From contig NC_015948.1 of assembly GCF_000223905.1 (NCBI RefSeq), forward strand, positions 2,356,001-2,420,000: 64,000 nucleotides of DNA, written 5' to 3'. The notes below the pieces were generated by a model that saw only the letters and a list, made by a program, of their open reading frames with translations, ran no database searches and was not told the origin of the DNA. How positions within the stretch are numbered: the stretch's first letter is position 1; the number at the start of each line of letters is the position of its first letter. Of the stretch, positions 11,216 through 15,353 are shown piece after piece. Origin of the DNA: Haloarcula hispanica ATCC 33960 (GTDB lineage: Archaea > Halobacteriota > Halobacteria > Halobacteriales > Haloarculaceae). Both the position numbers and the translations under genes were made by a program.

Positions 11216-12052
11216 TCATTGCTTGTTTTCTTGCACCGACAGGACCGATTCAAGCGGCTGTGACCGCGCTCTGTATCGGTCGAACACCGTCTCAGCCCAG
11301 CTATACACCGCTGTGGCGTCGGATTCGGCTATCGCCCGGACGTTGTTCCGGTCGTCGTAGGCCGCCAGACAGACCCGCGAGCGGTCCAGTGCGAGGCCGA
11401 TATCAAGCGGAGTATCGTGGACGTACGTGTCGATGTTCTCGTGTTCGACGCCTCGTTCCAGCGCGTCTGCGAAGTCCGACGCTGACCGTTCGAGGACGCT
11501 GTGATCGATGATGAACTCGATACGCGTCCCCGTTTCGAGCAGGTCCACCGCGACGTCGTTGAACACCGATGTAACGATAGGCGAGATGGCCCGAACGTCG
11601 CCGTCGACCTCGTGCAGCCAGTCCGTGAACCGATCAATCGCGGCCAGCGGGTTCTGTTCGGAACTCGTCGTGAGACAATTGGGGTCTAACAGCTCCGCCG
11701 GGAGATCCGCCGCGATGGAACCGAGGTGGGCGGCCAGCGGACCGACCGCCCGAGCCCGTTCGATCTCGCTCATGAGTGCCGTGTACTGGTCCAACACCCG
11801 CTGTCCAGTCACCGTGAGCCGGTACTCGCCGTCCCGTTTGACGACCCACTGCCGCTCGGAGAAGCCCGCGAGTATCCGCTGGATCGTGGTCCGAGTCGCG
11901 TCCACCGCATCGCACAGATCGGTGGGCCGTGCCGGACGCTCCCGGAGCTGGGCCAGTACTGCGAACCGCTGTGGTGACCCAGTAAGGAACTGGCAGTCCT
12001 CGAAAACGGTGTCGTCCGGACCCTCCGCCATTGGATACGTCTGCGTGGGCAA
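11216..12052 (-). CDS. HTH transcriptional regulator with FilR1-type middle domain
   Basis: A 278-residue protein with an N-terminal winged HTH (about 20-95: PTDLCDAVDATRTTIQRIL, then wing RDGEYRLTVTGQRVLDQY). A C-terminal regulatory domain (about 130-255) resembles the methanogenesis regulatory protein FilR1 middle domain found in many haloarchaeal predicted regulators (ISPIVTSVFNDVAVDLL, DIGLALDRSRVCLAAYD). The ligand and targets are unknown. Two ATGs are possible (12052 and 12031). It is a single gene with its own promoter region, upstream of the convergently placed small intergenic region. Confidence 0.82.
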   Translation of the reverse strand: MPTQTYPMAEGPDDTVFEDCQFLTGSPQRFAVLAQLRERPARPTDLCDAVDATRTTIQRILAGFSERQWVVKRDGEYRLTVTGQRVLDQYTALMSEIERARAVGPLAAHLGSIAADLPAELLDPNCLTTSSEQNPLAAIDRFTDWLHEVDGDVRAISPIVTSVFNDVAVDLLETGTRIEFIIDHSVLERSASDFADALERGVEHENIDTYVHDTPLDIGLALDRSRVCLAAYDDRNNVRAIAESDATAVYSWAETVFDRYRARSQPLESVLSVQENKQ

Positions 12053-12099: not shown

Positions 12100-13764
12100 C
12101 TACTCGTCGCCGAACGAGCCGAGGGTGCTTTGGGTCCCGCCGTCTTCCGCGCCGTTCGACGCATCCGTCCCGTGTTCCGCGGCGATGCGTGCAGCGGCTT
12201 CGCGGCCGCCGGAGAAGGAGGCACGGCGCGCAATAGCCGAGTCCTGCAGGGCGTCGGCCGCGTCAGCGCGGACCTCCTCGTAACGCCTGCGGAACGCCTG
12301 TCTAGCCGCGTCGTAGTCGACGACCGGGTGCGGGTAGTCTTCGCCAATGCTGACGCCACAGGACGCCTGTACGTGGACCGGCGTCCCCTCGGGCCGGTCG
12401 AGGTACTCGTCGGGGAGCGAATCGAGTTCGGGCACCCACCGACGAATGAACTCGCCGTCCGGGTCCTGGTCACGGACCTGCTTTCGAGGATTGTACAGCC
12501 GGAGCGTCGGTTTGCCGATCAGTCCACATTGTGATTGCCACTGTGTGTAGTTGATCGCCGCCGAGGCGTCGATGAGATGGTGGTAGAACCAGTCCGCGCC
12601 GATCCGCCAGGGCTGCTGGAGCAAGTGGTAGTAGACCGAGGCACACATCGCCCGCATCCGGAAGTTGAGCCAGCCCGTCTCCTTGAGACACCGCATCGAC
12701 GCGTCGACCATCGGGAACCCGGTCCGTCCGTGCTTCCAAGCGGCCACCAGATCGGGGTCATACTGTGCCGTGTTGAACCCCTCGAACACCGGGTTCACCG
12801 CCGTATCGAGCCAGCCGGGCCAGTCTTCGAGTTTCTGTTCGTAGTGTTTGTTCCAGAACAGCCGCGAGACGAACATCTCTTTCCCGCGGCCGTCGGGCGC
12901 GTGGGCCTCGATGTACTGGATGACCTGCCGCACGGAGAGACAGCCGAAGGCGAGGTACGGCGAGAGCCCGCTGGTCCCGTCCCGCGCGTCCGTCGGCGCG
13001 GAGATGTTCCCCGGGTAGTCGTCGATCCGCTCGGCGAACGCAGACAGCCGTTTGCGTGCTGGCCCGGTTCCGCCGCGCGGCACCGCAGATTTCGACGGCG
13101 TGAGGTCGTAGTGGTCCTCAATCGTGCTGATGTCGATGCCGCTATCGAAGCTCCGAGAGGTGACCGTGCTCGGGTCCCAGTCGTACTGGTCGGCGGAGAA
13201 CCACGCCGAGACGTCGTCCTGCCACCCGTTGCGGGTCTCCGCTCGGTCCCGAACCAGCCCGTCGCCGTCGACGAATGTGACGCCACACTGTTCCCGAACG
13301 CGGCGGTCCCGCTCCCGGCCGTAGCGTCCGGTCGGAACGGCCATCGTCACGATGTCCCAGCCGGCCTCGCGGAACCGCCCCAGCACGTCCACCGGGTCCC
13401 CGTGGGCGTAAGTGAGCCCGCGGCCGGTCACAGTGTGGTACTGGTCTGCGAGGTCGGCCAGACAGTCGTGCAGGAAGCGGATACGGCTGTCACAGGCGAG
13501 GCCGTCCGCGCCGTAGAACGCCGGGTCGAACACGAACAGCGGGAGCATATACTCGGACGTTGCAGCCCTCGCTACCGCGGCCTGATCGCGAATCCGAAGG
13601 TGTTCGCGATGCCAGACGACTGTGCCGGATACATCGCTCTCAAGCGTCGGAATCGCGTCCTGTCGTGGCGCGTCCAGCGTCTCGTCTGACTCCAGTCCCG
13701 GCATACGCGCTATTGATTCGTCATTGGACCACAGGCACCACTGTCTTTCGTCTCTCGAAGCCAC
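12100..13764 (-). CDS. phr: Deoxyribodipyrimidine photolyase / cryptochrome family protein
   Basis: A 554-residue flavoprotein. The N-terminal alpha/beta antenna domain (about 40-190) begins GTVVWHREHLRIRDQ. The C-terminal all-helical FAD domain has TGFPMVDASMRCLKETGWL, NFRMRAMCASVYYHLLQQPW and INYTQWQSQCG. Known members repair cyclobutane dimers or (6-4) products with light, or sense light. The segment NPRKQVRDQDPDGEFIRRW differs from the classical class I enzymes, so I do not assign a lesion type. The acidic Ala-rich tail ends QSTLGSFGDE, which resembles a PCNA-binding peptide. The start may instead be ATG 13704. Confidence 0.88.
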   Translation of the reverse strand: MASRDERQWCLWSNDESIARMPGLESDETLDAPRQDAIPTLESDVSGTVVWHREHLRIRDQAAVARAATSEYMLPLFVFDPAFYGADGLACDSRIRFLHDCLADLADQYHTVTGRGLTYAHGDPVDVLGRFREAGWDIVTMAVPTGRYGRERDRRVREQCGVTFVDGDGLVRDRAETRNGWQDDVSAWFSADQYDWDPSTVTSRSFDSGIDISTIEDHYDLTPSKSAVPRGGTGPARKRLSAFAERIDDYPGNISAPTDARDGTSGLSPYLAFGCLSVRQVIQYIEAHAPDGRGKEMFVSRLFWNKHYEQKLEDWPGWLDTAVNPVFEGFNTAQYDPDLVAAWKHGRTGFPMVDASMRCLKETGWLNFRMRAMCASVYYHLLQQPWRIGADWFYHHLIDASAAINYTQWQSQCGLIGKPTLRLYNPRKQVRDQDPDGEFIRRWVPELDSLPDEYLDRPEGTPVHVQASCGVSIGEDYPHPVVDYDAARQAFRRRYEEVRADAADALQDSAIARRASFSGGREAAARIAAEHGTDASNGAEDGGTQSTLGSFGDE

Positions 13765-14418: not shown

Positions 14419-14952
14419 TCACCACGAGGACCGACCGCTGGTCTCCAGAACCACGGTGACGGTGGTTTCGCCGCGTTCGGTCGTCGTCGTCACGTCGAAG
14501 CCGACGGCGAGGACGTGCGTGCGGCCGACCCGGTCCTGAGCGACGACGCCGCGGTCGGCGACGCAGTCCCCGAACTGGCGGTCCGGCCCGGACGGACAGT
14601 TCGCGTCTTTCCACTGCCGCGTTGCAGTGCCGTTGTAGGTTATATTGTAGTGAACACCGTCTTCGATTCGGGAGGTCTGGAGTCGGTCGAGCCGAGGCTG
14701 CAACCCCGTCCGAACGGCCGTCACTGCCGAATCGTTCGCGGCCCAGGCGTACTGGCTCGGGATGGACGTGCTCTCCGTCGCGACGGCTCGCTCAAGCACC
14801 CGAAGCGCGTCAGCAGACGGGTCGTCGTCGTAGTCTGCCGTCGCCCGAACGTCGTCGTGATAGCCCAGTTGGAGTGAGGCGAGCACGATTGGGACCAGCG
14901 CTACAGCGATGACCGTGGCCGCAACGAGGACTAGCTGTCCGCGCCGGGTCAT
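14419..14952 (-). CDS. Pilin-like protein, last gene of the tad operon
   Basis: A 177-residue protein with a short positively charged N-terminus (MTRRGQLVLVAATVIAV), one hydrophobic segment (about 6-27) and a hydrophilic, probably external remainder with two Cys (about 125 and 132) that could form a disulfide. It belongs with the haloarchaeal pilin-like proteins of unknown function that accompany TadA/TadC (DUF726x-type families, by memory). I chose ATG 14952 because it overlaps the upstream stop (ATGA); a GTG at 14961 would add three residues. Confidence 0.8.
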   Translation of the reverse strand: MTRRGQLVLVAATVIAVALVPIVLASLQLGYHDDVRATADYDDDPSADALRVLERAVATESTSIPSQYAWAANDSAVTAVRTGLQPRLDRLQTSRIEDGVHYNITYNGTATRQWKDANCPSGPDRQFGDCVADRGVVAQDRVGRTHVLAVGFDVTTTTERGETTVTVVLETSGRSSW

Positions 14953-15353
14953 GTGTACCACACGATGATTTGGACACTCCCGTGTCCCGTCGGCACAGTT
15001 GCGGTCCCAGTGCTGACGCCCTGTGGCGTCGGTGTTCCGACCGCTCCGTGCGGTGTTTCGACCCGGAAGAGGACGTTGTCGGGCAGGATACGGGCGACCC
15101 GGTTCGAAAGCGCGTCCCGCTCGCGGTCGAATGCCGCTGGACTCGAAACGACCTCCTGCAGTCGCGTTGCACCGTCGTGTCGCGGCGAGTCGTTAGCGAG
15201 GAGTGCCGCCGTATCCGAGGCGTAGGCGTCGAGTTGTGGCTCCCGGGTGTCCGGCGCTGGAGTCCCAAGAGCAAATCCCAGCGCGACGCCGAGAATCAGC
15301 ACTGTCCCGAGGGCAACTTCCACGAGCGACAGCGGCAACTGGGCTCTACGCAT
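14949..15353 (-). CDS. Pilin-like protein of the tad operon
   Basis: A 134-residue protein starting MRRAQLPLSLVEVALG, a type IV pilin-like N-terminus with one hydrophobic helix (about 8-28) preceded by basic residues, and an extracytoplasmic C-terminal domain. ATG 15353 overlaps the upstream gene by 8 bp. The upstream TTG adds one residue only. Like its neighbours it is presumably a minor pilin or pseudopilin; no specific function is known. Coupled to the next gene by ATGA. Confidence 0.8.
   Translation of the reverse strand: MRRAQLPLSLVEVALGTVLILGVALGFALGTPAPDTREPQLDAYASDTAALLANDSPRHDGATRLQEVVSSPAAFDRERDALSNRVARILPDNVLFRVETPHGAVGTPTPQGVSTGTATVPTGHGSVQIIVWYT

Follow-up and report, generated by a model that had tools for sequence, protein, structure and literature searches.

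The usual view of photolyases is of enzymes that locate their lesions unaided, wherever on DNA these lie. The closest described counterparts of the tail reported here are found among the PIP-carrying clients of haloarchaeal PCNA (RFC-L, PolB, the PolD large subunit, FEN1, RNase HII, and NreA), which, like the photolyase-family protein of this study, carry an extreme C-terminal Q-x-x-L/I-x-x-F/W without a second aromatic residue. The tail here differs from theirs in that it sits on a flavin protein of the photolyase family and in that its binding to PCNA is predicted from sequence. In the accessible sections of the relevant literature, the Hfx. volcanii PIP consensus is given as QxxLxxFx (PMC7776575), and a PIP pocket that is shallower and less hydrophobic is described (PMC2737543). 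The same kind of partial source places A. fulgidus RNase H in a complex with PCNA without a second aromatic residue (PMC3504372), and the consensus peptide cocrystallized with Afu PCNA contains TQSTLDSFF (PMC4929162), from which the photolyase sequence TQSTLGSFG differs at two of nine positions. NreA is, like the protein described here, a repair factor or candidate repair factor with a C-terminal PIP, and removal of its PIP mimics the loss of NreA in vivo, as stated in the available part of PMC4929162. According to that part, the NreB genes of several archaea adjoin a gene resembling that of spore photoproduct lyase; in such NreB/SplB pairs the possible PIP is on the partner protein, whereas in the present case the photolyase-family protein bears it. 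A search of the open-licence PubMed Central literature turned up no paper on a photolyase that binds PCNA, and the accessible portions of PMC7776575, PMC10052015, PMC8305020, PMC3820547, and PMC5333053 contain no mention of one.

The window, a stretch of 64,000 nucleotides from Haloarcula hispanica ATCC 33960, contains a photolyase/cryptochrome-family gene on the minus strand at positions 12100..13764, encoding 554 amino acids from the GTG start as listed. Residues 1 to 44 had low pLDDT values in the AlphaFold model and showed little conservation outside the genus in a 17-member alignment; the true start may lie downstream of the listed GTG. The protein has an N-terminal DNA_photolyase domain (PF00875, residues 48 to 164, 13273..13623, minus strand, E 5.2e-18) and a FAD-binding domain (PF03441, residues 298 to 496, 12277..12873, minus strand, E 3.3e-66). 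AlphaFold, using 13 sequences, modelled the core moderately well (mean pLDDT 69.9, pTM 0.73), and a Foldseek comparison with the PDB identified the fold as that of the photolyase/cryptochrome type; this search of the PDB did not separate the photolyase classes. The core is followed by a tail and linker (residues 506 to 544, 12133..12249, minus strand) that is poorly conserved between genera, apart from the element RRASFSGG (residues 513 to 520, 12205..12228, minus strand), which is conserved in the alignment of members. From residue 517 onward the model is disordered, with pLDDT below 50 throughout residues 517 to 554. Past the stop codon by some 50 to 70 bases, and on the same strand, starts a gene for a winged-helix regulator (HVO_A0261_N, FilR1_middle; 11216-12052, minus strand), which possibly shares a transcript with the photolyase gene. 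A DUF7261 protein is encoded elsewhere in the window at 14419-14961 (minus strand).

The first-pass annotation of this DNA had read the end of the protein as QSTLGSFGDE and likened it to a PIP motif, and positions 12100-12132 of the minus strand indeed comprise exactly ten such codons and the stop. The PIP-box-like motif proper, QSTLGSF (residues 545 to 551, 12112..12132, minus strand), is recognized from the sequence, the tail alignment, and the client profile described below, and it is followed only by GDE and the stop. The 26 residues ahead of QSTLGSFGDE (519 to 544) are GGREAAARIAAEHGTDASNGAEDGGT. They are rich in alanine (7 Ala), as had been proposed, but only weakly acidic, with five D/E against two R, so that the description of a long acidic linker was slightly overstated.

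Relatives were collected from samples of genomes of the class, order, and phylum. In the class, with the 17-member alignment as the query, 99 of 391 genomes and 33 of 86 genera contained the gene at E <= 1e-100 (103 matches). The family is well delimited: in the phylum sample of 392 genomes, a wide gap separated the weakest member (1.3e-159) from the best next protein (1.9e-78). All members in that sample came from the same order, and the weaker matches were mostly paralogues; one of them, L220 in genome G120, is a fragment of the photolyase family under study. C-termini were read at all 103 class matches (99 genomes) and at the loci of further relatives, giving 131 loci with 109 distinct tails. 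Leaving out four bacterial loci gave 127 haloarchaeal loci and 105 distinct tails, in which identical tails are merged and related species are not independent.

The pattern Q-x-x-[LIVF]-x-x-[FY], starting within the last 20 residues, was present in 100 of these 105 tails. When each tail was shuffled, 0.22 +/- 0.48 tails carried the motif, with a maximum of 2 in 300 repeats, which rules out chance as its origin. Glutamine at position 1 is fixed by the search pattern; position 4 is hydrophobic, mostly of the Leu/Ile/Met type (L in 88, I in 8, F in 3, and V in 1 of the 100 motif-bearing tails), and position 7 is aromatic (F in 97, Y in 3). The canonical second aromatic residue at position 8 was found in none of the 100. 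The motif Phe or Tyr is followed by nothing at all in 29 tails, by E in 27, G in 24, D in 7, S in 6, T in 4, and M, A, or N in one each. The motif thus lies 0 to 8 residues from the C-terminus. Entropy at the Q, L, and F anchors was 0, 0.67, and 0.19 bits, against 2.9 to 3.5 bits over the preceding 14 positions. The first-pass annotation had named a lack of conserved Q-x-x-L-x-x-F at the C-termini of orthologues as a refutation of its reading, and the comparison brought no such refutation: in the class search, motif-bearing members occur in all eight family-level haloarchaeal groups that hold the gene, and a ninth group (f3) has one altered copy only (L036), without the motif. Codons were compared in 13 of the 19 genomes of the same genus, the frame-broken L097 and five more distant sequences having been left out. 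Amino acid changes within the seven-residue motif were confined to the x positions; the Gln codon varied silently, and the Leu and Phe codons were invariant. In these 13 Haloarcula sequences, the motif Phe is followed by GDE or by a comparable ending two or three residues long.

The five tails without the motif are those of L061, L097, L012/L043, L036, and L038. L061 and L097 are frame-broken and still encode the tail motif in another frame. L012/L043 is a frame-broken member that ends within the core. L036, whose genome is 63% complete, and L038 look like the long-linker type described next, minus the distal motif; no copy of the motif was found in other frames of L012/L043, L036, or L038. 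The long-linker subfamily (L034, L037, L039, L122-L129, and L132) has two successive PIP-like motifs. The proximal one lies at about the place of the motif in the short tails and has its aromatic residue replaced (e.g., GTQLSLGEI and VQLSLSDA). Roughly 70 to 110 residues on, at the very end, lies a full distal motif (GQTRFRDFE, EQTTIEGFM), and between the two is a conserved IPTGxGxxAGEPSPDDRxAV-like stretch; L130 has both motifs without this bridging stretch. These tails can be taken as a further sign of selection on the motif, and we infer that the proximal motif is the older of the two.

Among the proteins examined, the motif-bearing tail is confined to this family. The H. hispanica genome encodes two more FAD_binding_7 proteins, L001 and L002, both without the motif. 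Of 40 further photolyase-family stretches taken from the phylum sample, 39 were paralogues, two of them from outside the order; none of the 39 has the motif, and their C-termini lie 0 to 7 residues past the aligned core. The fortieth, the partial family member L220, has QTGLDEFG. The haloarchaeal paralogues (L001, L002, and 37 of the 39 fetched), like class I CPD photolyases (1owl), share the family and the FAD domain with the 554-amino-acid protein; these paralogues stop 0 to 7 residues past the core with no motif, whereas the protein studied here has the motif tail. The motif as a general property of haloarchaeal photolyases is thereby ruled out. Inheritance of the tail from bacteria is also rejected, because none of four bacterial proteins (L013-L016) has it, although only L013 and L014 among them share the arginine discussed below and L016 scores as a DASH protein in the model search.

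For comparison with PCNA clients, a background set of 681 open reading frames was assembled by crude scripted gene calling from 39 stretches of the same genome and the window, together 844 kb rather than the whole genome. Ten of their C-termini matched a loose pattern, against 3.0 +/- 1.7 after shuffling (maximum, 7). The ten were RFC-L, PolB, the PolD large subunit, Mre11, an Orc1/Cdc6 protein, the photolyase, PurQ, and three other open reading frames; PurQ (...QGVLEGFAE) and the last three presumably match by chance. The client ends in this genome are much alike: RFC-L ends in ...QQSGLSDFM, the PolD large subunit in ...KQSGIADFM, PolB in ...EQTGLGSFM, FEN1 in ...VQTGLDRWA, NreA in ...LQSQLSDF, and RNase HII in ...EQASLGDF. 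The first-pass annotation had pointed to Gly in place of the second aromatic residue. The Gly is there, yet it is no disqualification, because established haloarchaeal clients also lack this residue, PolB, PolD, RFC-L, and FEN1 of the same genome among them. NreA was matched in 55 genomes and RNase HII in 59; tails were read at the best 30 loci per search and in the RNase HII of H. hispanica itself, and 30 of 30 NreA and 30 of 31 RNase HII tails carry the motif. Only one of these 60 motifs has a second aromatic residue. We therefore reject the view that a motif without one is not a PIP motif, since 59 of the 60 are of that kind, and, this count being in line with the QxxLxxFx consensus in the accessible part of PMC7776575, the second aromatic residue does not define the haloarchaeal type.

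A profile built solely from the 60 NreA and RNase HII motifs gave the photolyase tail 17.7 bits, third among the 681 C-termini, with RFC-L (21.7) and PolD (18.8) above it, PolB (16.0) below it, and the 99th percentile at 8.0. The other five of the top six were RFC-L, PolD, PolB, Orc1/Cdc6, and Mre11, all replication or repair proteins. Across the photolyase family the median was 15.9 bits, the 5th percentile 6.0, and the minimum 1.7; among 45 tails of paralogues and bacterial proteins the highest score was 2.9, so that some low-scoring members bring the family into slight overlap with the best paralogue. The prospective partner is also encoded: the PCNA of this genome (L077) has Hfx. volcanii PCNA (3hi8) as its best match, at 1.1e-113. 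With positions counted along the alignment and the PIP pocket taken as in the accessible part of PMC2737543, Met46 and Met239 are retained and Leu stands in place of Ile122. A weak second PCNA_N match (L078, G000:C1:86831-87088; 20.6 bits against a cutoff of 20.3) lies in a 321-amino-acid frame on another contig.

We consider it very likely that the C-terminal QSTLGSF is a functional PIP of the haloarchaeal type (Q-x-x-L-x-x-F lacking a second aromatic residue) that would tether the flavoprotein to PCNA. The tether to the replication clamp suggested in the first-pass annotation thus gains support at the sequence level, from conservation and from likeness to known clients. Since the tail is kept in almost all relatives and resembles the hook by which other repair proteins hold the clamp, the 554-amino-acid protein probably travels with the machinery that copies DNA. 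Binding to PCNA, recruitment, and a role in photorepair at the fork are what we infer from this. In the scheme proposed, the enzyme core would hang on the clamp by its tail of about 40 mostly disordered residues, with Gln entering the Gln pocket and Leu and Phe entering the hydrophobic pocket under the interdomain loop of PCNA. The disordered linker would let the flavin core reach nearby DNA. Tethering would place the flavoprotein beside DNA being copied, repaired, or gap-filled and so concentrate light-driven repair there; photolesions that the polymerase meets could be reversed where they are encountered, hand-over taking place on the trimeric ring.

One point against PCNA binding is the Gly-Asp-Glu after the motif, a negatively charged flank. 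An argument based on human PCNA holds that proteins with such flanks probably do not bind (available part of PMC6881253), and in Hfx. volcanii PolY an Asp at position 8 was modelled as unfavourable, though able to flip out (available part of PMC2737543). The tail of RFC-L in the same genome is more acidic than that of the photolyase. The three tails with no copy of the motif in any frame and the family members with low profile scores also count against binding. The conserved motif could also serve another partner or purpose, such as contact with a different protein of the replisome or of repair, tagging for proteolysis, or folding back onto the core. Conservation alone names no partner, and the post-core RRASLSGG element means that the tail has other conserved parts; however, the motif fits the profile of independent PCNA clients, it lies in a disordered part of the AlphaFold model, and the C-termini that rank with it are those of replication and repair proteins, which together make such a use unlikely. 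A likeness arisen by chance or descent and without function is more improbable still. Within Haloarcula, recent descent accounts for much of the conservation in the tail, and the 13 sequences compared share the same Leu and Phe codons, but across genera the linker comes close to randomness and the three anchors do not change, and the long-linker subfamily has a C-terminal copy where the proximal copy lacks its aromatic residue.

Another reading agrees with the PCNA tether on binding and differs on role: the protein would bind PCNA as a cryptochrome-like light sensor or as a competitor for the clamp pocket, and not as a lesion-repairing photolyase. In its favour is residue 301 (codon 12862..12864, minus strand). 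Class I CPD photolyases have Glu at this position, which we take to be their CPD-contacting residue (E283 in A. nidulans, E274 in E. coli), whereas the 554-amino-acid protein has Arg, as judged by counting along alignments with 1owl, L002, L015, and L016. Arg occupies the position in all 17 haloarchaeal members aligned, as it does in L013 and L014, which are relatives from Bacteroidetes; Glu is found in the paralogue L002 and in L015 and L016. Of the features of a class I CPD photolyase, the FAD-binding domain and the photolyase fold are thus present and the dimer-contacting Glu is not. None of the NCBIfam models for class I photolyases, DASH proteins, or plant cryptochromes reached its cutoff (the best, TIGR03556, scored 189.2 against 884.6 bits), which says little because the paralogue L002 is below every cutoff too. 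With Glu replaced by Arg301 and no NCBIfam class model reached, we use "photolyase" as a family name for this protein. Its structure and sequence matches in the PDB are photolyases and cryptochromes alike. Against a sensor or competitor stand, though not strongly, the small weight of the missed cutoffs, the compatibility of the Glu loss with repair of other lesions, and the intact FAD-binding domain. We regard this role as doubtful, though worth keeping in mind. No published phylogeny including the haloarchaeal members was found in the accessible portions of PMC9649867 and PMC7560933.

If the PCNA tether is correct, a clamp-binding tail on one clade of the photolyase family would allow light-driven repair to be coupled to DNA copying, and the haloarchaeal clamp network would gain a client that is directly testable. 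A wider and more speculative picture, which we put forward tentatively and would not expect to hold in full, is that of a distinct haloarchaeal clade of clamp-borne flavoproteins, in which an enzyme related to bacterial ones gained a PIP tail and turned into a light-driven component of the replication fork; with Arg in place of Glu, its lesion specificity would be unlike that of class I CPD enzymes. In the long-linker subfamily, the two motifs with the conserved stretch between them could then bind at two sites on a single PCNA ring or swap from one site to the other.

The form of the haloarchaeal PIP, Q-x-x-L-x-x-F without a second aromatic residue, stands out clearly from this comparison and is useful for finding more clients. 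Two proteins of the background set are candidate PCNA clients: the Orc1/Cdc6 protein (L165:7058-8386, minus strand), which ends in DEQQNLWQFT, and Mre11 (L171:14262-15518, minus strand), which ends in GQASVEEFL. PolB (L171:7543-10473, minus strand) has, besides its C-terminal motif, a second PIP-like stretch near the N-terminus, MSDGTQGTLGDFEQ, and the PolD large subunit (L180:2813-7003, plus strand) carries the intein signature TIGR01445.
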